Source: Hydrogenophaga sp. IBVHS1
Lineage (GTDB): Bacteria; Pseudomonadota; Gammaproteobacteria; Burkholderiales; Burkholderiaceae_C
Assembly (NCBI RefSeq): GCF_002127265.1
Contig: NZ_NFUU01000002.1
Location: forward strand, 186,001-250,000
Direction: 5' to 3'
Length of the DNA stretch: 64,000 nt
Made by a program: the position numbers and the translations under genes. Below the pieces are notes generated by a model, which was not told the origin of the DNA, ran no database searches, and saw only the letters and a list, made by a program, of their open reading frames with translations. Of this stretch, positions 44,871 through 61,354 are shown piece by piece (the first letter of the stretch is position 1; the number at the start of each line of letters is the position of its first letter).

Positions 44871-46043
44871 ATGCAGTTCACCCACGAACACCGCGAGATC
44901 CAGAAAACGCTCAAGCGTTTCATCGACGAGCAGATCAACCCGCATGTGGACGAATGGGAGGCCGCCGAGATTTTTCCTGCGCACGAGGTGTTCAAGGGGC
45001 TGGGCAAGCTCGGCTTGCTGGGCCTCACCAAACCCGAGGCGCAGGGCGGCGGCGGGCTCGACTATTCCTACGGCATGGCCATGGCCGAAACGCTGGGGCA
45101 CATTCACTGCGGCGGCGTGCCCATGGCCATTGGTGTGCAGACCGACATGGCCACGCCCGCGCTGGCCCGCTTCGGCAGCGATGAACTTAAGCGCGACTTT
45201 CTGGCGCCCGCCATCGCTGGCGACATGGTGAGCTGCATCGGCGTCTCCGAACCCGGCGCTGGCAGCGACGTGGCTGGCATCAAGAGCGTGGCCCGCAAGG
45301 ACGGTGACGACTACGTGATCAGCGGCCAGAAGATGTGGATCACCAACAGCCTGCAGGCCGACTGGATGTGCATGCTGGTGAACACCAGCGACGGTCCCGC
45401 GCACAAGAACAAGAGCCTGGTAATGGTGCCCATGCGCGAGGGCGGCAAGCTCGTGAAAGGCATCGAGGTCGCGCAGAAGATCCGCAAGATCGGCATGCAC
45501 AGCAGCGACACCGGCCTGATCTATTTCGATGAAGTGCGCGTGCCGCAACGCTACCGAATCGGCCAGGAAGGCGCGGGCTTCATCTACCAGATGCAGCAGT
45601 TTCAGGAAGAGCGCCTGTGGTGCGCCGCCAGCACGCTGCAGAGTCTCACCAACTGCATCGAATGGACGGTGGAGTGGGCGCAGGAACGCAAGCTGTTTGG
45701 CGCCTCGTTGTCCGATCAGCAATGGGTGCAGTTCAAGCTGGCCGAGCTGAAGACCGAGGTGGAATCCCTGCGCGCACTCACCTACCAGGCCTGCGAGCAC
45801 TACATTGCCGGGGAAGACGTGACCGAGTGGGCCACCATGGCCAAGCTCAAGGCCGGCCGTCTGAACCGCACCGTTCCCGACACCTGCCTGCAGTTCTGGG
45901 GCGGCATGGGCTTCACGCTGGAGAACAAGGTCTCGCGCATGTACCGCGATGGCCGGCTCGCATCCATCGGCGGCGGGGCGGACGAAGTCATGCTGGGCAT
46001 CCTTTCAAAAATCATGGGCATCGCGAAGAGACCCGTCAAATGA
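44871..46043 (+). CDS. atuD: Acyl-CoA dehydrogenase 1 (citronellyl-CoA dehydrogenase-like)
   Basis: This 390-residue flavoenzyme has standard acyl-CoA dehydrogenase features: GVSEPGAGSDVAGIKSVA, the substrate-side GQKMWITNSLQADW, and the C-terminal FWGGMGFTLENKVSRMYRD and IGGGADEVM. AtuD oxidises citronellyl-CoA to geranyl-CoA; the operon order supports that role but the sequence alone cannot prove it. The ATG at 44871 has AAGGAGA upstream. It is cytoplasmic and overlaps the hydratase gene by 4 bp. No inserted repeat is seen here. Confidence 0.82.
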   Translation: MQFTHEHREIQKTLKRFIDEQINPHVDEWEAAEIFPAHEVFKGLGKLGLLGLTKPEAQGGGGLDYSYGMAMAETLGHIHCGGVPMAIGVQTDMATPALARFGSDELKRDFLAPAIAGDMVSCIGVSEPGAGSDVAGIKSVARKDGDDYVISGQKMWITNSLQADWMCMLVNTSDGPAHKNKSLVMVPMREGGKLVKGIEVAQKIRKIGMHSSDTGLIYFDEVRVPQRYRIGQEGAGFIYQMQQFQEERLWCAASTLQSLTNCIEWTVEWAQERKLFGASLSDQQWVQFKLAELKTEVESLRALTYQACEHYIAGEDVTEWATMAKLKAGRLNRTVPDTCLQFWGGMGFTLENKVSRMYRDGRLASIGGGADEVMLGILSKIMGIAKRPVK

Positions 46044-46842
46044 ACAACGTCTTTCAGATCGATCGCGATGGCGGCATGGAGCGCTGGACGCTCAACGACC
46101 CCGACACCCGCAACGCGCTCAGCGACGCCATGGTGCTCGGCCTGTACGAGGCCACGCTGCGCGCGCAGAAAGATACCTCGCTGCGGATCGTGGTGCTTAC
46201 CGGTGCGCCCGGCGCCTTCAGTGCTGGTGGCAGCCTGGGGAGTTTTGCCAGCGCCATTGGCCAGCCGCTGGCACCGGGCGAGGCCGACCCGGTGATCCCC
46301 ATGAGCCGCCGCTTCGGCGATGTGCTGCATGCGCTCTGCGCGCTGCCGCAGATGCTGGTGTGCGCTGTAGACGGCGCGGCCATGGGCGGTGGCTTTGGTT
46401 TGTTGTGCTGCGCCGACCACGTCATCGCTACCCAGCGTTCGGTGTTTGCGACGCCGGAAGTGACGCTCGGCCTGCCACCTGCGCAGATCGCGCCCTTTGT
46501 TTGGCAGCGCCTGGGCGACGCGCGTGCGCGCCAGTGTCTGCTGCAGGGGCGCAGCTACCGCGGCGCCGAGGCCGAGGCGTTCGGCCTGGTTGATGAACTG
46601 GTGGCCGACAACGCGCTCGAATCTGCGCTGCGCCACCGCCTGACGGAGATGCTGCGAACCGCGCCCGGCGCCATGGCCTGCTCCAAACGGTTGTTGCAGT
46701 TGCTGCGCGATGAGGTCGCCGACCTGCGCGACGAAGCGGCCATCGCGTTTGCCGATGCCCTGCGTGGCCCTGAAGCGGCGGCCGGCATCGCTGCGTTTGC
46801 CAGGAAGCAGCCCGCGCCGTGGGTGGGTGGGGGCGAGAACAA

Positions 46843-46846
<4 letters not shown>
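46040..46846 (+). CDS. atuE: Enoyl-CoA hydratase/isomerase (isohexenylglutaconyl-CoA hydratase-like)
   Basis: This 268-residue crotonase-family protein has the oxyanion hole region GAPGAFSAGGSLGSFA and the core GAAMGGGFGLLCCADHVIA, with TPEVTLGLPPAQIAPFV following. It should add water to the product of the geranyl-CoA-type carboxylase. The start overlaps the stop of the preceding dehydrogenase by 4 bp and its end overlaps the biotin carboxylase gene by 4 bp (GTGA). Its place between atuD-like and atuF-like genes matches the Pseudomonas atu order. Confidence 0.8.
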
Positions 46847-48755
<1,909 letters not shown>

Positions 48756-48759
<4 letters not shown>

Positions 48760-49988
48760 ACACGGCAGAAGACCGCGCCGCGCTCGTCGACACGGTGAAG
48801 CGCTTCGCCACGCAAGCCATTGCCCCGCACGTGACCGCGTGGGACGAAGCCGGCGAGTTTCCGCGCGCCCTGCACCAGCAGGCCGCCGAGCTCGGCCTTC
48901 TCGGCCTGGGCTACCCCGAGCACCTGGGCGGCACGCCGGCGCCCTGGCGCGCGCGCAATGCCTTGTCTCAAACCCTCGCGCGCTTTGGTGGCAGCGGCGG
49001 CGTAATGGCCAGCCTCTTCACCCACAACATCGGTCTGCCGCCCATCTTGAAACACGGCACGCCCGAGCTGCAGGCCGAGGTGATTCCGCCCGTGCTGCGC
49101 GGTGAGCAGATTGCCGCACTCGGCATCACCGAACCCGGTGGGGGCTCCGATGTGGCCGCGCTGCGCACCACCGCGCGGCTCGATGGCGACCACTATGTGA
49201 TCGACGGCGAGAAAGTGTTCATCACCTCCGGCATGCGCTGCGACTGGATCACGCTCGCCGTGCGAACGGATCTGCAAAGCAAAGGCGCCAGCGGCATCAG
49301 CATGGTGGTGGTGCCCTGCAGCGCACCCGGCATATCCCGCAGCCGGCTGGAGAAGATGGGCTGGCACTGCTCCGACACCGCGCACCTGCGCTTCGACGGC
49401 GTGCGCGTGCCGGCGCGCTACCTGCTGGGCGAAGAGGGCGCAGGCTTTCGCATGGTCATGACCAACTTCAACGGCGAACGGCTGGCCATGTCTGCCATGG
49501 CGCTGGGCTTTGCCGAGGCGTGTTTTGATGAAGCCCTGGCCTGGGCGCGCCAGCGCAGCACCTTCGGCGCGCCCCTCATCGAACGTCAGGTGATCCGCCA
49601 CAAACTCATGGACATGCAGATGCGCATCCACTCCACCCAGGCCTGGCTCGATGCGCTGGGCGACCGAGTGGACGCTGGGGATGATGGCAACGTTCCATCG
49701 CCGGGCCGCCCCAAGGTGGAACAGCCCCCCTGGGGGGCAGCGACCCATGCGGAGCAGGGGAGCGTGGGGGCACACAGTGATTGGGTCGCGCAAGTGTGCC
49801 TGCTCAAGAACCACGCCACCCAGACCATGCAGTTCTGCGCCGACGCTGCGGTGCAGATCCTCGGCGCCATGGGCTTCATGCGCGGCACCGTGAGCGAGCG
49901 CGTGTACCGAGAAGTGAAGGTGATGATGATCGGCGGCGGCGCCGAGGAAATCATGAAGGAACTCGCCGCACGACAATCGGGCCTATGA
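48756..49988 (+). CDS. Acyl-CoA dehydrogenase 2, with repeat-derived insertion
   Basis: This 410-residue acyl-CoA dehydrogenase has GITEPGGGSDVAALRTTA, GEKVFITSGMRCDW and the C-terminal AVQILGAMGFMRGTVSERVY and IGGGAEEIM. About residues 306-343 are unlike the family and read PGRPKVEQPPWGAATHAEQG and beyond; they are encoded by a dispersed GC-rich repeat (49700-49775) placed in frame between two helices. The gene is longer than usual by about that amount. It is not part of the classical atu set, so it may serve a later beta-oxidation step. Confidence 0.82.
49700..49775. repeat. Second GC-rich repeat, in frame inside acyl-CoA dehydrogenase 2
   Basis: The core GCCCCCCTGGGGGGC (49724-49738) is a perfect inverted repeat, flanked by GGGCCGCCCCAAGGTGGAAC and GCGGAGCAGGGGAGCGTG. 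Such elements are frequent between genes in Comamonadaceae. Here it is translated, adding about 38 residues without breaking the frame. Confidence 0.7.
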
Positions 49989-50479
49989 GCAAGACCACCA
50001 CCACCATCCCCGCCAAACCGGTTGAATTTGAACCCGAGTTCCTCGCGGCTCTCACGCAGATGTTCGAGGAAAGAATCGTCTTCAACCACGTGCTCGGCTT
50101 GAAGATCACCAGAATCCGCCCCGAGATGGTCACCGCCCGCATCGACATGAAGCCCGAGCTGATGGGCAGCTTCGTGCACAACCGCCTGCACGGCGGTGTG
50201 GTCAGCGCCGGGCTCGACGCCATGGCCGGCCTCGCCTGCATGGCCGCCATCGGCGCCCGCCACATGGACGAAGCCCCCCTGCAACGCCTGCACCGCTTCG
50301 CCAAGCTCGGCACCATCGACCTGCGCGTGGACTACCTGCGCCCCGCCATCGGCGACCACTTTGAACTGCGGGCGGAAGTGATGCGCCTTGGCTCGCGTGT
50401 GGCCAGCACCCGCATGGAGTTTCTGGGGGCGGATGGGAAGTTGTTGTCTACCGGGGCGGGCGCTTACATCGTGTCTTGA
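49985..50479 (+). CDS. Thioesterase family protein (hotdog fold)
   Basis: This 164-residue protein has a hotdog-fold thioesterase pattern: MFEERIVFNHVLGLKITRI, the helix region GSFVHNRLHGGVVSAGLDAM and LRVDYLRPAIGDHFELRAEV. It probably releases CoA from an acyl-CoA, and the family often contributes an acidic or asparagine residue near HGG. The ATG overlaps the preceding dehydrogenase stop by 4 bp, so it is the last gene of the atu-like operon. It is not part of the classical atu cluster. Confidence 0.82.
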   Translation: MSKTTTTIPAKPVEFEPEFLAALTQMFEERIVFNHVLGLKITRIRPEMVTARIDMKPELMGSFVHNRLHGGVVSAGLDAMAGLACMAAIGARHMDEAPLQRLHRFAKLGTIDLRVDYLRPAIGDHFELRAEVMRLGSRVASTRMEFLGADGKLLSTGAGAYIVS

Positions 50480-50491
50480 TGGGTCACAAAC

Positions 50492-51229
50492 ATGCAACCA
50501 CCAAATATGTTCCCTTCATCGCTGAGTTCGTGGGTCCCTGCGCTTGCGCTCTGTCTTCTCGCCCACGCTCCGCATGCCCAGGCACAGTCCTACAGGGAGT
50601 CCATGAGCGCGATGGCGGCGCAGGAGTTCTATGGCGACGTCCAGCGGCGAATCAGCGCTTCCACGCACGATGGCCCTACCTACTACCTGCGTGGAAACTA
50701 CACGCTCACGCCGGAGCAGGAGCGTTACCTGGAAGAACGGCGCCAGAACGACGAGAAGCTCAACGAGCTCCGCAAAGACCCCGTGCTCATGCGCTATGTC
50801 AATGGCCACTGGCAGCACTACCAGGCCAGGGCGTCGGCCCAGCCTGGCGAGTTCTGCGCCGCAACGTACACCAACCTGCACGGCTCCATCACCCTGAACG
50901 GGGTCGACAAGTCGTGGGAGGGCGGCCTGCTGACGTTCATTGGCAAGAACATCCCCAAGCCGAACCAGTTTCGTGAGATCACGGCCACCCTCACGCAGTC
51001 GGGTGACGCGCCCGCCACCGTGAGGATCTTCAACGCCCAGGCAAGCCCAGCCATGCATGGCCACGGAACGCTCATCTTTGCGGTTCCGAGCATGAAGGCC
51101 GCGCTGGCCGGCATGTCGGAGAAGCAAGATTTCGTCATCACCATCGAAGGGCAGGAGGTGTTCCGGATGGGGTGGAAAGAAGGCAAGTCTGCCCGTGACA
51201 ACTTGCAGAAGTGCATGCGTCAGAGCTGA
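50492..51229 (+). CDS. Secreted hypothetical protein
   Basis: I do not recognise this 245-residue protein. It has a Sec signal peptide (about residues 1-32, ending HAQAQ), a charged helical part with TPEQERYLEERRQNDEKLNE, and a C-terminal beta-rich part with CAATYTNLHGSITLNG and HGTLIFAVPSMKAALAGM. Two cysteines, in GEFCAATY and near the end (LQKCMRQS), could form a disulphide. It is likely periplasmic. It starts 12 bp after the thioesterase gene but is probably functionally separate. Confidence 0.6.
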   Translation: MQPPNMFPSSLSSWVPALALCLLAHAPHAQAQSYRESMSAMAAQEFYGDVQRRISASTHDGPTYYLRGNYTLTPEQERYLEERRQNDEKLNELRKDPVLMRYVNGHWQHYQARASAQPGEFCAATYTNLHGSITLNGVDKSWEGGLLTFIGKNIPKPNQFREITATLTQSGDAPATVRIFNAQASPAMHGHGTLIFAVPSMKAALAGMSEKQDFVITIEGQEVFRMGWKEGKSARDNLQKCMRQS

Positions 51230-51261
51230 CAAGCCTCAAGCGCGTCCTCCGTTGCTAGCGA

Positions 51262-51975
51262 TCAACCCGCCTTGTCCTTCGGCGGCTCCGGCGCCGCATC
51301 GAACAAATCCACCGGCGGCACCTTCAGCAGCGCCTGCGCCTCCGCCACCGTGCCCGCCAGCCACTGTCCCACGTCACCCCGCTCGATTGGGATCACGCTG
51401 CGCTTGTCCTGCAAATCGGGCGGCAGCGGCTGGCGCGTGGCCGGGTCCACCTCGGGCTTGTGCATGCGGCCCATGAGCGGGTGGCCGTTGGCGTGCAGCG
51501 TGAGCATGGTGTAGCTCTCGTGCGCCTCGCCCGAGCGGCGGTCCACCCAGCGGTGCCACAGCCCCGCCAGACCCCAGGGCTCGCCATCGGCCCGCTGGAA
51601 GCGCCACCACACATTGCGGCCCGTCTCCCAGTTGGGCTCGTAGAACGCCGTGGCCGGAATGATGCAGCGCTGCCCCCGCGCCCACGCATCCCGAAAACTC
51701 GCCTTGCTCGCCATCTCTTCCGAGCGCGCGTTGTAGGTGGCGAACTTCACATCCGGCGACACCGCAAACGGCGGAATCAACCCCCAGCGCCCCGCCACCA
51801 GCTCCAGAGAGAACCCCTCCACATCACCGCGCGAGCGCCGCAGAAAAGGACCCGTCTGCCGAGGAAACAACTCCACCCCGAACACCTGCCGCAACCAGGT
51901 CTCGCTGTTGTCGCGGCCGATGTGCCAGCCGCGCTCGATGGCGGCTTGTTCGGGGGAGATGTAGCGGGTGCACAT
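51262..51975 (-). CDS. SOS response-associated peptidase (HMCES/YedK type)
   Basis: This 237-residue protein belongs to the SRAP family. The catalytic Cys2 starts the protein (MCTRYIS). The other family elements are FATYNARSEEMASKASFRDA, the acidic residue in CIIPATAFYEPN, and GHPLMGRMHKP near the DNA-binding end. These enzymes form a covalent link with abasic sites in single-stranded DNA and protect them during replication. It lies just beside an HNH nuclease and the restriction-type island, on the minus strand. Confidence 0.9.
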   Translation of the reverse strand: MCTRYISPEQAAIERGWHIGRDNSETWLRQVFGVELFPRQTGPFLRRSRGDVEGFSLELVAGRWGLIPPFAVSPDVKFATYNARSEEMASKASFRDAWARGQRCIIPATAFYEPNWETGRNVWWRFQRADGEPWGLAGLWHRWVDRRSGEAHESYTMLTLHANGHPLMGRMHKPEVDPATRQPLPPDLQDKRSVIPIERGDVGQWLAGTVAEAQALLKVPPVDLFDAAPEPPKDKAG

Positions 51976-51989
51976 GGGGGCGGCGGTGC

Positions 51990-52694
51990 CTAGTGAGCGC
52001 GAAACACCACGCTTCGATGGAATTCCATGAACGGCTGGTGTTGGGCATGCAGGGACACGCGCATGTCGGCGGAAATGCCCAGCTTCTCGGGCTCCGTGAG
52101 CTGTGGAGACAGCGTGATTGGCCCGGCAGGGGAGAACGTGATCAGCCCCGAGTCAAACGCCTTGTCCAGGTTCGGCGTGAGCAACAAGCCGTTAAACCCT
52201 TCGAGCCGTTCCTTGCTGTTGCAGTCGCGCCAAGGCTTGATGTGCGACGCCACCAAGAGGTTCGTGTCTTTGAAGCCTGTGACCGCACAAACCTTCCAGT
52301 GCGCCAGTACCCTTTGCCGGAACACGCCTTGGCCAATGCGCGACTTCACCAAGTTCAAGCGTTCCGTCGCGTCCAATCCCGGGTCGCTCAAGATTTGGTC
52401 GATGTCCTCTTCCACATCGCCGCTGTGGCCGTCGGCCAAGTACTTGGCGAACTGCGCCAAGGCGGCGCTGTACATCTGCTTGCCGGTCTCGTTTCGCTGC
52501 AGAAAGTTCGGCAACCGCTGAATCCCCACCGTCACAGCCTTCAGGGCCGCCTCGCTCCGCAGCGCAGTGAGCGGGCCGTCGGTCAGCTTGGCTTCCATTG
52601 CCCAGGCTGACAGCGGCCCTTTGATGGTCCCCGCGTAGTTGGAGATCGACTTGTCGCTCAGGCCGCGAAGGCGCATCCAGTCTTCAAACGTCAT
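51990..52694 (-). CDS. HNH endonuclease
   Basis: This 234-residue protein has a C-terminal HNH nuclease domain: CAVTGFKDTNLLVASHIKPW, then NGLLLTPNLDKAFDSGLITF, with the central His in ASHIKPW and the Asn in PNLDKAFD. The N-terminal half is helical and of unknown role (MTFEDWMRLRGLSDKSISNY). Such proteins occur in restriction systems and mobile islands. It is encoded between the SRAP gene and the island with methyltransferase and MORC-like genes, on the opposite strand, so it may be an independent defence gene. Confidence 0.82.
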   Translation of the reverse strand: MTFEDWMRLRGLSDKSISNYAGTIKGPLSAWAMEAKLTDGPLTALRSEAALKAVTVGIQRLPNFLQRNETGKQMYSAALAQFAKYLADGHSGDVEEDIDQILSDPGLDATERLNLVKSRIGQGVFRQRVLAHWKVCAVTGFKDTNLLVASHIKPWRDCNSKERLEGFNGLLLTPNLDKAFDSGLITFSPAGPITLSPQLTEPEKLGISADMRVSLHAQHQPFMEFHRSVVFRAH

Positions 52695-52814
52695 GACGCG
52701 CCACTCCCTGGCCGTTGTGTTGGCCTTAAGGATACCGTCAGGGGGTATGGGGTATCGTGGCTTTTCGCAAGCCGCTTCCTGGGGAAAAACCGAATACCCG
52801 TCGCTATACTGCGC

Positions 52815-53034
52815 CGGTCACGTCACAAAAAGGCGTGATCGGGCTTGGCAGCCCGATGCACCGCGGCAACGCAAGCCGCAGTTTTCTATCCGCAGAAGCC
52901 CTGCGGCTTGCCTGTTCGTGCCCCAGTTTTGGCGGCTCGATCAGGGAGCCGTGAGGCTCGCCGGTTCGTGCAAGCGGTGCCCGGTCTGCCAACCTGTTCG
53001 AGCCGCCGCCCTCGCTTCATCGCGAGGGCGGCGG
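52815..53034 (+). other. Structured leader region with hairpins and a repeated segment
   Basis: This stretch has no reliable protein-coding frame but carries several strong inverted repeats: TCACG/CGTGA (52818-52838), CGGGCT/AGCCCG (52840-52855), and a perfect 13 bp stem CCGCCGCCCTCGC/GCGAGGGCGGCGG (53003-53034). Two related 21 nt segments (52901-52921 and 52951-52971), exactly 50 bp apart, share GTTCGTGC at their ends. It ends 34 bp before a small gene, so it may be a structured 5' leader or a small RNA. I cannot name a known RNA family. Confidence 0.45.
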
Positions 53035-53068
53035 TAGATGCAATCACCGCACTCGCAGGGAGGCTGAC

Positions 53069-53377
53069 ATGGCCAAGTTCAATCTTCGTGGCGCATTTGC
53101 TGGCGCCGACTCCAAGCCCATCAATCCCAGAATCGTCATCCTGGCCACAGAGGCAGCCGATCAGGCTTCGCTTCTGGCCGTGATGGTGAAGACGTACACG
53201 GCACTGGAGAGAATCGTGACGTACGACCAAGATTCACTGGAACGAGCGGCCACGCGAGAGGGTCTTGGCTCGTTGATTCGAGCGCTGAATGTGGAGATGG
53301 AGAGGCAGGTGGGGACGTTGGTCCACAGCACGAGTGCACTGCGTGACTTTGCGCTGAATGAGTGTGACGGATGGTGA
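53069..53377 (+). CDS. Small conserved hypothetical protein after the structured leader
   Basis: This 102-residue soluble protein is not recognised. It is mostly helical (ILATEAADQASLLAVMVKTY; LIRALNVEMERQVGTLVHST) with a glycine/alanine-rich start (MAKFNLRGAFAGADSKP). The ATG has GGGAGG upstream. It opens the island that carries the methyltransferase cassette, but a 206 bp gap separates it from that cassette. Its base composition is lower in GC than that of most neighbours. It may be a regulator or a gene of the mobile element. Confidence 0.55.
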   Translation: MAKFNLRGAFAGADSKPINPRIVILATEAADQASLLAVMVKTYTALERIVTYDQDSLERAATREGLGSLIRALNVEMERQVGTLVHSTSALRDFALNECDGW

Positions 53378-53447
53378 CGAAGATAAAAGGGCCTCACAGC
53401 CGGAACATTCAAGGCCCGTCCTTCCGGTCAATATGCAAAAACAAGGA

Positions 53448-53477
53448 TTGACCTGCGCGGTCGATCTGCTGTATATC
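53448..53477 (+). promoter_or_regulatory. Candidate promoter for the methyltransferase cassette
   Basis: TTGACC (53448-53453) and TATATC (53472-53477) with an 18 bp spacer look like a sigma-70 promoter 106 bp before the methyltransferase start. The spacer between genes 53377 and 53584 holds no other gene. Confidence 0.4.
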
Positions 53478-53583
53478 TACACAGTCTTCGTGGAGGGCGA
53501 ATTGACGCGCAATGAAGATGTTTGCCTTAGCGCGTTGACAAGCAGAGGCTGGATACACAAACAACAATCACAGACCAACGAAG

Positions 53584-54918
53584 ATGCAAACCTTTCGATT
53601 CATCGACCTGTTCGCCGGCCTCGGCGGGTTCCATCTGGCGCTGGACCGCCTCGGTGGCAAGTGTGTCTTCGCAGCCGAGTGGAAGGAGCACCTTCGCGAC
53701 CTCTACAAGGAGAACTTCGGCCTGAGGCCGGAAGGCGACATCACGCTTGTCCATCCGCAGGATGTCCCGGATCATGACGTTCTGACTGCGGGCTTTCCAT
53801 GCCAGCCATTTTCCAAGGCTGGCGAGCAGTTGGGCTTCGAGTGCACCGAGCAGGGCAATCTGTTTTTCAATGTCGCCTCCATCCTCCAGGAGAAGAAGCC
53901 TACCTACTTCATCCTCGAGAACGTCCCCAATCTACTGAAGCATGACGAAGGCCGTACGTGGGAGGAAATCCAGAAGATTCTCACCGAGCAACTTGGGTAT
54001 CACGTGCGAGCCGAGCGCTTCTCACCACACAACTTCGGCATTCCGCAAATTCGTGAACGCGTCTACATCGTGGGCTCCCTACTGCCGTTGGATGCATTCG
54101 CTTGGCCTAAGACCAGCGACGCCGACACTAACATCGATACGGTGCTCGACGATAAGCCCGCCGACGCGAAGAAGCTGTCTGCCCAAGTAAATGAGTGCCT
54201 AGAGGTCTGGGCCGAGTTCCTGAATGCCGTCCCGTCCACTGTAGAACTTCCGTCGTTTCCGCTCTGGTCCATGGAGTGGGGCGCTACCTACCCGTACGAA
54301 GAGACCACACCCCACGAGCTACAAAGGCAATACGGATACGACGGACTGAAGGGCTTCAAGGGGAGCCACGGGGCAAAGATGGGGTACCTGAAGACTTTCG
54401 AAGAGCGGTGGGCGGCGCTTCCTAGTCATGCTCGAACGCCACAGGCAAAGTTCCCAAAGTGGAAGCAGGACTTCATCCGGCAGAACCGCCAGTTTTATGA
54501 AGACAACAAGACTTGGATTGACCCTTGGCTGCCAAAAATTCTGAAGTTCCCGTCAAGCCTCAAGAAGTTCGAGTGGAACATCAAAGGCGGTAAGAGAAAC
54601 ATCTGGGATTACGTCATTCAGTTCCGAGCTTCTGGCGTTCGTGTCAAGCGCCGCACTACCGCTCCCAGCTTGATTGCGATGACGGACACTCAGGTCCCCA
54701 TCATTGGCTGGCAGCGGCGCTACATGACCCCTCACGAGTGCGCGCGCCTCCAGAGCCTCGACGGGCTCAAGAAGCTCCCTGATAGCCCCACGAAGGCGTT
54801 CGCTGCCCTTGGCAATGCTGTGAATTCGAAGGTGGTGGAAATGGTGGCCAAAGCACTGCTCGGCACTCACACACCGGCCGAGGTAAAGCGTAAGCGCAAA
54901 GAACTCGAGGAGGCCTAA
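53584..54918 (+). CDS. DNA (cytosine-5) methyltransferase
   Basis: This 444-residue methyltransferase has the C5 motifs in order: SAM motif [19 protein letters not shown], the catalytic Cys in [22 protein letters not shown] in [23 protein letters not shown] and the C-terminal [14 protein letters not shown]. The target recognition region is the variable part about residues 215-350; its site is unknown. It heads a four-gene cassette and shares its last base with the next start, so it probably marks self DNA for the ATPase and nuclease partners. GC content is below that of flanking genes. Confidence 0.9.
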
Positions 54919-56555
54919 TGCCCGCAGCAGGCGACCTGGGACCTATCGAAATCCGGCCTGAAGTAACGATGCTGTCGGTGCTTCGGCACCTGAACTACAA
55001 GCCATGGTTCGCAATCGCGGAGTTCATCGACAACGCGGTGCAGAGCTACGTTAGCAACCGAGATGCGCTTGTTGCCTTGCACGGCCCCGACTACAAACTT
55101 AAGGTAGATGTCCGTTTGGACACCTCAGGCCCAGGCAGCATTGTCGTTACCGACAATGCTGCCGGCATCTCCGCGGCCGACTTCCCACGTGCCTTCCGAG
55201 CTGCACAGGTCCCTACCGACCGGAGTGGCTTGTCCGAGTTCGGAATGGGCATGAAGAGCGCGGCGTGTTGGTTCGCGCAGACGTGGAGCGTGCGCACGAA
55301 GGCGATCGGGGAGCCGGTAGAACGCACCATTGCCTTCGACATACGGCACATCGTTGACAACTGCATCGAAAGCTTGGACACGATTGTTCGAGAGGAGTTG
55401 TCACCTGCGCCGTACACCGTCGTGACGCTGCGTGGCCTGCACCACGTTCCGCAAGGCCGAACCGTCGGCAAGATGAAGGAGCACTTGGCGAGTATTTATC
55501 GGATGTTCTTGCGCGACGACCGGCTTGAGTTGACCTTCAACACGGAGCCATTGGCGTACACATCTGCGTCGGTCCTTACGGCCGTTCCGTACTCGTCGCC
55601 AGGCGCGCCGATTCCAGATACCGAGCCGGTCGAATGGACGAAGTCGATAAACCTGGACTTTGGCAAGGGGCAGCGAGTCACAGGTTTTGCTGCGCTCAGA
55701 GAGGTCGGCTCGACGCCGTACGCTGGCTTCGCACTATTTCGACGTGACCGCCTCATCGAGGGCAGTTACGACGAAACCTACCGGCCCAGCTTCATCTTCA
55801 AGCAGACCAACAGCTACCAATACCAGCGCATATTCGGTGAGTTGCACGTTGAAGGCTTCGAAGTCAGCCATACAAAGGATGGCTTTCGCTGGGAAGAGTA
55901 CGAAGACATCTTCCTGGAGTACCTCAAAGCCGCTCTCGAAGCAGAGCCGCTAGACCTGATTGCGCAGGCTGAGAACTATCGGGCGCTGCCGTCCCGCAAG
56001 ACCATTGGGGCTCGAGCCGCCGCTGCGACTGAGACGGTCGCCAAGCACCTCTCGGATGACGTCGCTCCTCTACTGGTCGACGCGCGCAAGCATCCTGCGG
56101 CCCCTGAGTCGCTGCCACCGGCGTTGGCGGATGTCGACCTCAAGGCCTCGGAGCGCACGGTAACGCTTGACGATGGAACGTACAAGTGGATCGTTACGCT
56201 CAGAACGTCTATCGACCCTGCACGCGAGGATTGGGTCTCCGTCTCCAAGGATGATGTCGTAGTAGGAGATGAGGACAGAGTGCGACGCCTCGGTATCGAC
56301 CTTTCCCTGGCGCATCCATTCTCAGCCGAGTTCCTTGGGGCAAACAACGAGAACGTGGAGTTGTTTTTGCGCGTCGCCACAGCAGTGAGCATCTCGTTAG
56401 TGCTCTCCGAGGACCTTTCGGGAAACCCACCCGAGAGTGTCCTATACCACTTCAACTACCTGCTGAGGGGTACGCTGGCCCGTGCCCCAATGACGAATGG
56501 CAACCACAATCCAAATACTGAAAACCGTGAAGCCTCCCCTGCTGTGGGAGCCTAA
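54918..56555 (+). CDS. MORC/MutL-like GHKL ATPase
   Basis: This 545-residue protein has the ATP site of the GHKL superfamily: N-box AEFIDNAVQSY (Glu35, Asn39), DNAAGIS and the glycine lid LSEFGMGMKSAACWF. The arrangement matches the prokaryotic MORC/MutL-like ATPases described in restriction-modification operons. Such ATPases likely dimerise on ATP binding and clamp or remodel DNA. The C-terminal half has no recognised domain. The start overlaps the methyltransferase stop by 1 bp, and the end overlaps the Z1 gene by 59 bp, unusually long. Confidence 0.85.
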   Translation: MPAAGDLGPIEIRPEVTMLSVLRHLNYKPWFAIAEFIDNAVQSYVSNRDALVALHGPDYKLKVDVRLDTSGPGSIVVTDNAAGISAADFPRAFRAAQVPTDRSGLSEFGMGMKSAACWFAQTWSVRTKAIGEPVERTIAFDIRHIVDNCIESLDTIVREELSPAPYTVVTLRGLHHVPQGRTVGKMKEHLASIYRMFLRDDRLELTFNTEPLAYTSASVLTAVPYSSPGAPIPDTEPVEWTKSINLDFGKGQRVTGFAALREVGSTPYAGFALFRRDRLIEGSYDETYRPSFIFKQTNSYQYQRIFGELHVEGFEVSHTKDGFRWEEYEDIFLEYLKAALEAEPLDLIAQAENYRALPSRKTIGARAAAATETVAKHLSDDVAPLLVDARKHPAAPESLPPALADVDLKASERTVTLDDGTYKWIVTLRTSIDPAREDWVSVSKDDVVVGDEDRVRRLGIDLSLAHPFSAEFLGANNENVELFLRVATAVSISLVLSEDLSGNPPESVLYHFNYLLRGTLARAPMTNGNHNPNTENREASPAVGA

Positions 56556-58764
56556 GCCCAAGGACTTCACCAACGCCTTCCTCGAAAGCAAGGCGGCGGA
56601 ACCGAACGGTCCGAATATCAATGAGCTGACGTCCGGACCCAAGTCAGTACTGCACGAGTCCTTGTGCATCCTTGGCCGCTGCTTGCCTCCCACTGAACCT
56701 GCCGGCCGCGAGACTGGCCTGGTAGTGGGGTATGTTCAAAGCGGCAAGACAATGTCGTTCGAGACCGTCATCGCTCTGGCTCGGGACAATGGCTATGGGC
56801 TTGTCATTGTGTTGGCAGGCACGAAGAATACGCTCCGAAGCCAGTCCGAGGACCGCTTGAAGAAGGACCTCGGTCTGGTGAATGGCAGCGACCATTGGCA
56901 CCACTTCTCCAATCCAACCAAAAAGCTGCGCTCGAAAATCGAAGGCCGGATTGATGACTGGAGCAAGAAGCATTCGCGCAAGTCGCTGCTAGTCACGGTC
57001 CTCAAGCATGGCGGGAACCTCGACAAGCTCACCGAGGTACTTGGCTCCGTAAACCTCACCGAAGTGCCTACGCTCATCGTGGATGATGAGAGCGACCAGG
57101 CGAGCCTCAATACGAACGCCAGCAGAATTCGTACGAACCGGGTGCCGGCAACGGCAATGAGCACGACCTACGAGCGCATCCTCGGTTTGCGCGACGTGCT
57201 GCCGCATCACTCGTACCTTCAGTACACGGCAACACCTCAGGCCAATCTGCTTTTGGCCCAGACAGATCTTCTCAATCCTTCGTTCTCCGAGCTCGTAACG
57301 CCGGGCGACGCCTATACGGGGGGCTATGCCTTCTTCAAGGGAGCTGCGGGCTTGACGGTGGACATACCTCCCGGCGATGTACCGACCGCGCAGACTCCGC
57401 TGAAGAGCCCACCGAAAAGTCTTCTGAGTGCGCTCCGATGTTTCTTGCTTGTTGCGGCTCAGCACGCGTTGACGCGTGACCGAAAGAGCCTCAAGCCGAA
57501 GGACCGGAACCGTTCGATGATGGTTCATCCTGCTGCGGCTACAGCATCACACAAGGTCTACAAAGGCTGGGTGGAGAGGGCGTACCGAAGCCTGAAGAAG
57601 ATGATTGGCGACGAGCACACGACGAAGCCGGCAGCCGTAGCGGCCATCTTCCAATCGGAGTACGCCTCGCTCTCCAAGACCCACCCGGGCATCAAGCCAC
57701 TGGGGGACCTCATCGAGGCAATGGTCGAGGATGTCTTCACAGATCTCGACCATGCGGAGGTCAACAGCACTCCCGAGGCCAATGAAGTCGATTGGACAGC
57801 CACGCGCTACTGGATTCTCATCGGCGGTGCCAATCTTGACCGCGGTTACACCGTGGAAGGACTCTGTATTACGTATATGCCCCGTGCGCTCGGTGGCTCA
57901 CCCGCTGCGGATACGTTGCAGCAGCGGGCGCGTTTCTTTGGCTACAAGAAGTCCTATCTCGGTCTGTGCCGGGTGTTCTTGCAAGCGGGTGTACGGCAGG
58001 CATTCACCGAGTACATCGAGCACGAGGACTTCATCCGCGAGGCCCTCGAGAAGCATCGAGGGAAACCCCTGCGGGACTGGCGGCGGGACTTCATCCTGAC
58101 CCAGATGCTTAGGCCCACACGACTCAACGTTATCGGCCTCGGCACTCGTCGAGTGCTCGTCGACGAGTGGATGGTTCCGAGGGTCCTTCATCGAGATGCC
58201 GCGGCGGTTGCGGTCAATCACAAGCTGTTGGATGATGTTGAAAATCACTGGAGCGCAGGCTTCACACGCGTTAACGCGGCGACGATTCCGCAACTAGCGC
58301 CTGCTAAGGGGCAGTCTCCCAATGACCTCATCGAAGCCGTCCCGCTGAAAACAGTGCTCGACGATTTTCTACTGAAGGTCGAGGTGAAGGACCCCGGCGA
58401 TGCCGAGGAACACGGTGCAATGCTTGTAGCGCTTGGCAGTCTGCTGGCCAAGGACCCATCACTGAAGGTTGATGTGTACCTGATGAACAACCTTAAAGCG
58501 GGCTACAGAAGTCGTGTTGGTACTGGAAGTCTCGCCGCCAGCCATCCTTGGGCACCCATCAACCAATACTTCAGCGCGAGCGCGAACTCAGTCAACGACA
58601 AGAGCTTCTTCACCCCAGACCGCCTTTCGTTACAGCTGCGGCGGTTCAATCTTGGTCACCACCTCAACCGGGCTGACTTGGCCGATATCCGAAATGTCGC
58701 CTGGTACGCGCTGCGTGTGCCCAAGCGCTTCGGTAAAGACTTGCTGGTAGAAGCGCGCGGCTGA
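56497..58764 (+). CDS. Z1-domain ATPase (helicase-like)
   Basis: This 755-residue protein has a P-loop VVGYVQSGKTMSFE (residues about 77-90), Walker-B-like IVDDESDQASLN (about 195-206) and the Z1 hallmark IGGANLDRGYTVEGL followed by QQRARFFGYKKSYLGL. Z1 proteins are superfamily II-like ATPases found only with methylase and MORC-like genes and are thought to move along or remodel DNA. The N-terminus lies inside the preceding gene (59 bp overlap). The gene ends where the PD-(D/E)XK gene begins (1 bp overlap). Confidence 0.87.
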   Translation: MATTIQILKTVKPPLLWEPKPKDFTNAFLESKAAEPNGPNINELTSGPKSVLHESLCILGRCLPPTEPAGRETGLVVGYVQSGKTMSFETVIALARDNGYGLVIVLAGTKNTLRSQSEDRLKKDLGLVNGSDHWHHFSNPTKKLRSKIEGRIDDWSKKHSRKSLLVTVLKHGGNLDKLTEVLGSVNLTEVPTLIVDDESDQASLNTNASRIRTNRVPATAMSTTYERILGLRDVLPHHSYLQYTATPQANLLLAQTDLLNPSFSELVTPGDAYTGGYAFFKGAAGLTVDIPPGDVPTAQTPLKSPPKSLLSALRCFLLVAAQHALTRDRKSLKPKDRNRSMMVHPAAATASHKVYKGWVERAYRSLKKMIGDEHTTKPAAVAAIFQSEYASLSKTHPGIKPLGDLIEAMVEDVFTDLDHAEVNSTPEANEVDWTATRYWILIGGANLDRGYTVEGLCITYMPRALGGSPAADTLQQRARFFGYKKSYLGLCRVFLQAGVRQAFTEYIEHEDFIREALEKHRGKPLRDWRRDFILTQMLRPTRLNVIGLGTRRVLVDEWMVPRVLHRDAAAVAVNHKLLDDVENHWSAGFTRVNAATIPQLAPAKGQSPNDLIEAVPLKTVLDDFLLKVEVKDPGDAEEHGAMLVALGSLLAKDPSLKVDVYLMNNLKAGYRSRVGTGSLAASHPWAPINQYFSASANSVNDKSFFTPDRLSLQLRRFNLGHHLNRADLADIRNVAWYALRVPKRFGKDLLVEARG

Positions 58765-59735
58765 TGGACTTGTACGACGAGTTTCAGGCGCTGGTATCCG
58801 CCACATCCTCTACCGAGTTCGCGGCGGTACCGGTCGGCGCGCGCCAGAATGACTTCTTGGCAAAGAGTGCCGACGGTGCGCCCATCTTTCTCGTCAGCGA
58901 CTCCAGCGCCGCCGCATACACGCCCGGGACTACTCTGAAACACCTGAGCGTCCAGTTTCACCTGACCTGCCGAGTGCAATCTGCAGCGGGCCCCGTTGAC
59001 GGGCAGTTCGCGCTCATCGCGTGCGACGCGGAAGTTCCAGAACTGTACGAACTTTTCGTCAGGTGTGTGGGAGCCGCGATCAATCAGCTCCCAGACGCTG
59101 CGAAGACTCCGGACATCGAATCGAGTGTGAGGTCGTTGCTGAACCTTTTTCGCGCAATGAACGCTCCGGGTGGGCGCGAGATTGCCGGTCTTTGGGCAGA
59201 ACTCTTCGTCATCGTCCAATCCGTCAACGTTTCGGCCGCAGTTCGGGCGTGGCACGCGAACACATTCGAGCGATTCGACTTCTCATGGCCTGGTGGCGTA
59301 CTTGAAGTGAAGGCCACGCAGAGTGGGGCGCGTGTTCACGAGTTTTCGCTCGAACAACTGGTCGTTCCGTCAGCGGGTCTTGGGCTGGTCGCCTCGCTGC
59401 TTCTCCAACCTCAGACGAACGGCGTTGGTGTTATGGATTTGGCGAGCAAGGTTGACGCGGCTCTTCACGATGAAGGCGACCTTCGACAACGTCTTTGGTC
59501 GAACATCGCGACTTCACTTGGAAGCGAATTCAGCGAGAAGTTGGATCGGCGCTACGACCTGAGCTTCGCGGAGCGCCAAGTGGCAATGTTCAACATGGCT
59601 GACGTCCCAGCGCCGGAGCGGCCGATTGATCCCCGTGTCACCTCCCTCCGATTTCGTTCCGACCTGACAACAGTGACTTCAACTGTTGCCGAATCAGGGC
59701 TCAAAGCCCTATCGTGCCTCTTCCGGGCTACCTGA
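58764..59735 (+). CDS. PD-(D/E)XK motif nuclease (DUF4420)
   Basis: This 323-residue protein belongs to the PD-(D/E)XK DUF4420 family (PF14390-type). The nuclease core is visible as a helical glutamate in GLWAELFVI, an aspartate in FDFSWPGG and VLEVKATQSG, giving E-X-K at residues 181-183. It is the likely effector nuclease of the cassette, cutting DNA not protected by the methyltransferase. The ATG overlaps the Z1 stop by 1 bp. A hairpin lies close to its end (59696-59710). Confidence 0.85.
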   Translation: MDLYDEFQALVSATSSTEFAAVPVGARQNDFLAKSADGAPIFLVSDSSAAAYTPGTTLKHLSVQFHLTCRVQSAAGPVDGQFALIACDAEVPELYELFVRCVGAAINQLPDAAKTPDIESSVRSLLNLFRAMNAPGGREIAGLWAELFVIVQSVNVSAAVRAWHANTFERFDFSWPGGVLEVKATQSGARVHEFSLEQLVVPSAGLGLVASLLLQPQTNGVGVMDLASKVDAALHDEGDLRQRLWSNIATSLGSEFSEKLDRRYDLSFAERQVAMFNMADVPAPERPIDPRVTSLRFRSDLTTVTSTVAESGLKALSCLFRAT

Positions 59736-60133
59736 AGCCGTCGCTTGCGAGGGATGGCGCCTGACTTGTCTGGACTTGATCAGAGGCGCAAGGCTACGCG
59801 AAGCGCGCCGCCAGCAGTGGCCGGCGTCAACTGCACTTCGATCAGCGGAAATTCATGGCAGCGGCCGACCGCACTGCCGAATGACTGCAAGGTGTGGGTC
59901 AGCGTAAGCACGGCGGCCAAGGTCGGCAGCCGCTGCAGATCAGGCCTTTGGCTGCACGCGTAAACACCCCGCGCATTCCTTTTCGCATCCATTGCTTATC
60001 ATGAAGGTAAGTCTCTGTTACCGGGCGTCCCTTGCCATACTGCCAGTGTCGTAGCGCGACCACATCGCAATCGCCGTCCTAGTGATGAAGGCGCCAACTT
60101 CTTTCCAAGCTCCTCTAGTTAGTGCGTCCATCC
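59736..60133. other. Non-coding spacer after the restriction-type cassette
   Basis: This spacer of about 400 bp separates the cassette from the RND efflux genes. Short open frames exist on both strands (for example 59780-59992 on the minus strand, 70 residues) but show no recognisable domain, ribosome-binding site or codon bias. It could hold the remains of a gene or the edge of the genomic island. I see no tRNA, repeat pair or recombinase site in it. Confidence 0.4.
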
Positions 60134-61354
60134 ATGCAGTCCGCCCCTCACGATCCGGCCAACCCCCCCGCCGCGCGCCCATCCCCCTGGCCGCGCCGCG
60201 CGCTCTGGGTCGCCCTGCTCCTGGGCACCGGTTTCGCCGCCTGGTGGTTCCTCCTGCGCCCACCCGCGCCACCCCCAGCCACGCGCGGCCCTTGGGACAT
60301 TCCCATCCCCGTGCGGGTGGAAACGGCGCTGGTGGAAGACTTCACCGTGCAGGCCCGCGCCGTGGGCACGGTGGCGCCGTACAACACAGTCACGGTGCGC
60401 AGCCGAGTGGCGGGGCAACTGGCGCGTGTGCTGGTGCGCGAGGGGCAGAAGGTGACGCGCGGGCAGTTGCTGGCCGAGATCGATCCCGAGCCTTTGCGGG
60501 TGGCGCTCTCGCAGGCGCAGGGGCAGCAGCAGCAGAACCAGGCGCAGCTTCGCAATGCAGAGAGCGAGCTGGCGCGGTACGACATGCTGTTCAAGCGCGA
60601 CGCGGTGGCGCGCCAGGTGCTGGACAGGCAGGCCGCGCTGGTGCAGCAACTGCGCGGCACGCTCAAGAGTGACCAGGCGCAGGTGGACAACGCGCAGTTG
60701 CAGCTGTCTTACACGCGCATCGTGGCGCCCATTGCCGGGCGCGTGGGCCTGCGCCGGGTGGATGCGGGCAACCTGATTTCGGCGAACGACGCCAGTGGTT
60801 TGTTCACCTTGACGCAAACTCAGCCGGTGTCGGTGATCTTCAGCGTGCCCGAGCCGCTGGTGGCCGATGTGCGCGCGGCGCACGATGGAAGCAAAACGCC
60901 GCCGCAGGCCGAAGCGTGGGATAGGGACAACCGCGCGCGCCTGGCGCTGGGCCGGCTGGACACGCTGGACAACCAGATCGACGCGGCCACCGCCACGCTG
61001 CGGCTCAAGGCGCGCTTCGAGAATGCGGACGACGCGCTGTTTCCCAACCAGTTCGTGAACGTGCGGCTTTCGCTGCGGCAGTTGCCCGGGGCCATCACCA
61101 TTCCCACCGATGCCGTGCAGCACGGTTCGCGCGGGAGCTATGTGTATGTGATCACCGATGGCCATGCGAAGGTGCGCACCCTCACGCTCGGCCCGGCGAG
61201 CGGCGGGCGTACGGTGGTGACCAAGGGCCTGGCCGCCGGTGAGCCGGTGGTGCTGGAGGGCCTGGACCGGCTGGAAGACGGCCGCGCGGTGAACATCGTG
61301 CAGCAGGCGGCGCAGGTGCCGGCTGCTTCGCCGCTGGCTCCGGACGCGAAGTGA
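60134..61354 (+). CDS. RND efflux periplasmic adaptor subunit (MdtA/AcrA type)
   Basis: This 406-residue membrane-fusion protein has an N-terminal membrane anchor (ALWVALLLGTGFAAWWFLL), a lipoyl-like half with RVAGQLARVLVREGQKVTRG, a coiled-coil hairpin rich in Gln and Leu (about residues 125-190), and YTRIVAPIAGRVGLRRVDAG. It links the inner-membrane pump encoded next to an outer-membrane channel. The ATG at 60134 was chosen; a GTG four codons earlier is possible. The substrate is unknown; MdtABC-like systems export drugs, bile salts or metabolites. Confidence 0.88.
   Translation: MQSAPHDPANPPAARPSPWPRRALWVALLLGTGFAAWWFLLRPPAPPPATRGPWDIPIPVRVETALVEDFTVQARAVGTVAPYNTVTVRSRVAGQLARVLVREGQKVTRGQLLAEIDPEPLRVALSQAQGQQQQNQAQLRNAESELARYDMLFKRDAVARQVLDRQAALVQQLRGTLKSDQAQVDNAQLQLSYTRIVAPIAGRVGLRRVDAGNLISANDASGLFTLTQTQPVSVIFSVPEPLVADVRAAHDGSKTPPQAEAWDRDNRARLALGRLDTLDNQIDAATATLRLKARFENADDALFPNQFVNVRLSLRQLPGAITIPTDAVQHGSRGSYVYVITDGHAKVRTLTLGPASGGRTVVTKGLAAGEPVVLEGLDRLEDGRAVNIVQQAAQVPAASPLAPDAK

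Follow-up and report, generated by a model that had tools for sequence, protein, structure and literature searches.

Does a compact row of four genes in Hydrogenophaga sp. IBVHS1 act as a restriction system, and where does it stand among bacterial operons with MORC ATPases? The genes lie in a window of 64,000 nucleotides (contig NZ_NFUU01000002.1, positions 186,001 to 250,000), in which a first-pass annotation had named a C5-cytosine methyltransferase, a MORC-type GHKL ATPase, a Z1 ATPase and a DUF4420 protein, and had invoked a published restriction prediction for such operons. Such a prediction was indeed published: Iyer and co-workers (2008; PMC2292703) describe MORC operons that combine a DThhQXuRhFG-motif helicase and an E-D-ExK nuclease with methylases, Vsr and AIPR, and they suggest that eukaryotic MORC was acquired from bacteria with such operons. 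We find that the cassette is a member of a distinct branch that, unlike its best-known relatives, has no AIPR gene, and that it probably serves defence against foreign DNA.

Profile searches bore out all four families, and the proposed layout of consecutive genes with overlaps of 1-59 base pairs in a less GC-rich region was confirmed by the coordinates and by GC measurement. The first gene (53584..54918, + strand) encodes an HhaI-like C5-cytosine DNA methyltransferase of 444 residues (PF00145, 7.8e-67; TIGR00675, 3.1e-69; PDB M.HhaI, 1.2e-54), with PCQ (72-74) and ENV (112-114) conserved in 11 of 11 aligned sequences. Similar methyltransferases occur in 1108 phage records, 3 of them spanning at least 80% of the query and all below 60% identity; by sequence this looks like general C5-methyltransferase similarity. 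M.CglI and M.NgoAVII target GCSGC (PMC4267653), and passages of PMC10687267 give GCAGC for four strains whose mza system encodes a methyltransferase; carrying either target over to the present enzyme would be a guess.

The second gene (54918..56555, +) encodes a MORC-family GHKL ATPase of 545 residues (HATPase_c_3, 2.4e-15, above cut-off), in which E35, N39, D79, G83, G104-K113, T127 and K320 are invariant in 9 aligned sequences. Motif II of GHKL proteins has the form DxGxG; here it reads DNAAG, which differs. GFALFRRDRLI (residues 270-280; 55725..55757, +) exactly matches GhXhhpXXRhl, the S5-domain motif that defines MORC in PMC2292703, and the protein carries the GHKL ATPase motifs as well. 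The product of the third gene (56497..58764, +) is a motor-like ATPase of the Z1 family (PF10593, 1.5e-34; PADLOC Helicase_II, 3.1e-48, and MzaC, 4.8e-29) with GYVQSGKT and IVDDESD. Its lineage-diagnostic motif, DTLQQRARFFG (residues 472-482; 57910..57942, +), agrees with DThhQXuRhFG at 10 of 11 positions, the fourth being Q and not hydrophobic. The fourth gene (58764..59735, +) encodes a DUF4420 putative PD-(D/E)XK nuclease of 323 residues (PF14390, 2.9e-20), predicted to cut DNA. It contains a candidate E-D-ExK pattern (E146, D172, E181-V-K183); E146, D172, K183 and Q198 are invariant in 9 aligned sequences, and position 181 is E or D.

Consistent with the first-pass annotation, the catalytic residues appear intact, being conserved in alignments of all four proteins. 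This argues against a non-functional remnant, as do four open reading frames and a ratio of nonsynonymous to synonymous substitution rates (dN/dS) of 0.10-0.17 (against L090, dS was saturated and hence gave no value). A decayed relative (L021) exists, and a simple consensus scan recognised no promoter upstream of the cassette; even so, we regard decay as highly improbable. A TTGACC/TATATC pair at 53448-53477 was spotted by eye only.

Sequence comparison indicates that the four-gene cassette is mobile. A blastn comparison of the whole window with a locus of another genus (L019) gave a single match, 53565-59804 to L019 5476-11715 (94.3% identity over 6241 columns), and no match in the flanking sequence available for comparison. 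We label this block (53565..59804, +) mobile because it is the only stretch that the window has in common with the 94%-identical cassette of the other genus. No listed direct repeat (at least 15 nucleotides, 51200-60400) flanks the block with copies left of 53565 and right of 59804. At E 1e-100, 9 of the 67 genomes of the genus gave an mdtA match, the window's own among them and set aside; G024 was excluded because of a contig end. The remaining seven (L053-L059) have the mdtA side in common with the window and show no DNA match to window 46000-60235, two of them (L053, L058) covering just ~1.7 and ~0.4 kilobases upstream of mdtA; no clean empty site was obtained among the seven. For the gene on the left flank (50492-51229), the 66 other genomes of the genus yielded a single relative, a partial one.

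A cassette that moves with no conserved context at its insertion site would also suit a selfish, addiction-type element, kept mainly since its loss kills the host via undermethylated sites and not for phage defence. Restriction-modification elements typically behave in this way. We consider this unlikely as the main reason for retention, and it is compatible with the mechanism of the favoured explanation. We infer restriction by the cassette, whose gene families would fit restriction-modification; there is very little chance that it serves MutL-like DNA repair or methylation-linked genome maintenance instead of defence.

The AIPR and Vsr genes that often accompany such operons are absent from the window, as first noted. 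No AIPR protein (mzaE) was found in the genome, nor in any of 14 informative loci of the cassette's lineage. Nine open reading frames scanned at 50492-61354 contain no sigma-factor domain (mzaA), the rest of the genome not having been searched for it. On the NCBIfam models MzaB, MzaC and MzaD, run on window proteins and on no AIPR-type locus, scores were 22, 118 and 15 bits against cut-offs of 850, 1500 and 420. With PADLOC, the window proteins gave 8.7e-5 (MzaB), 4.8e-29 (MzaC), 0.035 (MzaD) and no MzaE match, whereas the AIPR-type locus L013 gave 1e-94, 2e-140, 7e-14 and 2e-76 (MzaE); the known-system models thus agree with a separate lineage. Five of nine compact MORCs matched PADLOC MzaB, at best 3.6e-6. 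From their sequences we call the AIPR-type loci MZA-like, the sigma factor being no part of that label's basis. A second, larger MORC-profile protein lies near two of them (L036 15541-17700, 719 residues; L062 2155-4311, 718 residues). Membership of the distinct AIPR-free branch makes the cassette a lean candidate for learning the original function of MORC.

Several features adjoin the cassette. A C4 antisense RNA (RF01695; 52804-53013, +) scored 60.5 bits (cut-off 45), and just upstream a c4-a1b1 target half scored 39.8 bits, under its cut-off of 46.7. In P1 and similar phages, immunity is under the control of C4 RNAs, and the cassette sits directly downstream of this region as if placed in a prophage-type control region. 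Positions ~52805-53077 match part of an Ideonella plasmid at 78% identity, and a terminase gene lies ~3 kilobases from the matched plasmid sequence. The RNA is followed by a frame of 102 residues (53069-53377) with no Pfam, PADLOC or NCBIfam match and no relative in phages or plasmids. An HNH_2 endonuclease gene (51990-52694, -; PADLOC HNH, 1.6e-27; GC 0.609, within the low-GC stretch) adjoins the island and is itself adjoined by a SRAP-family gene (SOS response associated peptidase; 51262-51975, -); an MdtA-like RND efflux adaptor (60122-61354, +) lies directly downstream of the block.

Compared by text description with the operons in the accessible part of Iyer et al. 2008, the cassette is alike in gene families, exact MORC motif, E-D-ExK pattern and methylase, but has neither AIPR nor Vsr and carries Q at the fourth position of DThhQXuRhFG. 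MZA (mzaABCDE; Gao et al. 2020, as described in PMC9523054) has three families in common with it. MZA has AIPR, whereas the cassette lacks it and shows no sigma factor alongside; its methyltransferase is an overlapping first gene, and its proteins fall far under the NCBIfam MZA cut-offs, in separate lineages. In CglI/NgoAVII (PMC4267653), with no MORC described, the nuclease belongs to the PLD-B3 type and carries a DNA-reading domain of its own; the cassette proteins gave no PLD or B3 match, and the fourth gene encodes DUF4420. The Corynebacterium diphtheriae BH8 island additionally has an EcoRII-like nuclease, and MORC is not named in the accessible part of PMC5379612. VcSduA, a Shedu protein with a GHKL domain (PMC12137116), likewise couples a GHKL ATPase to a PD-(D/E)XK nuclease, in phage defence.
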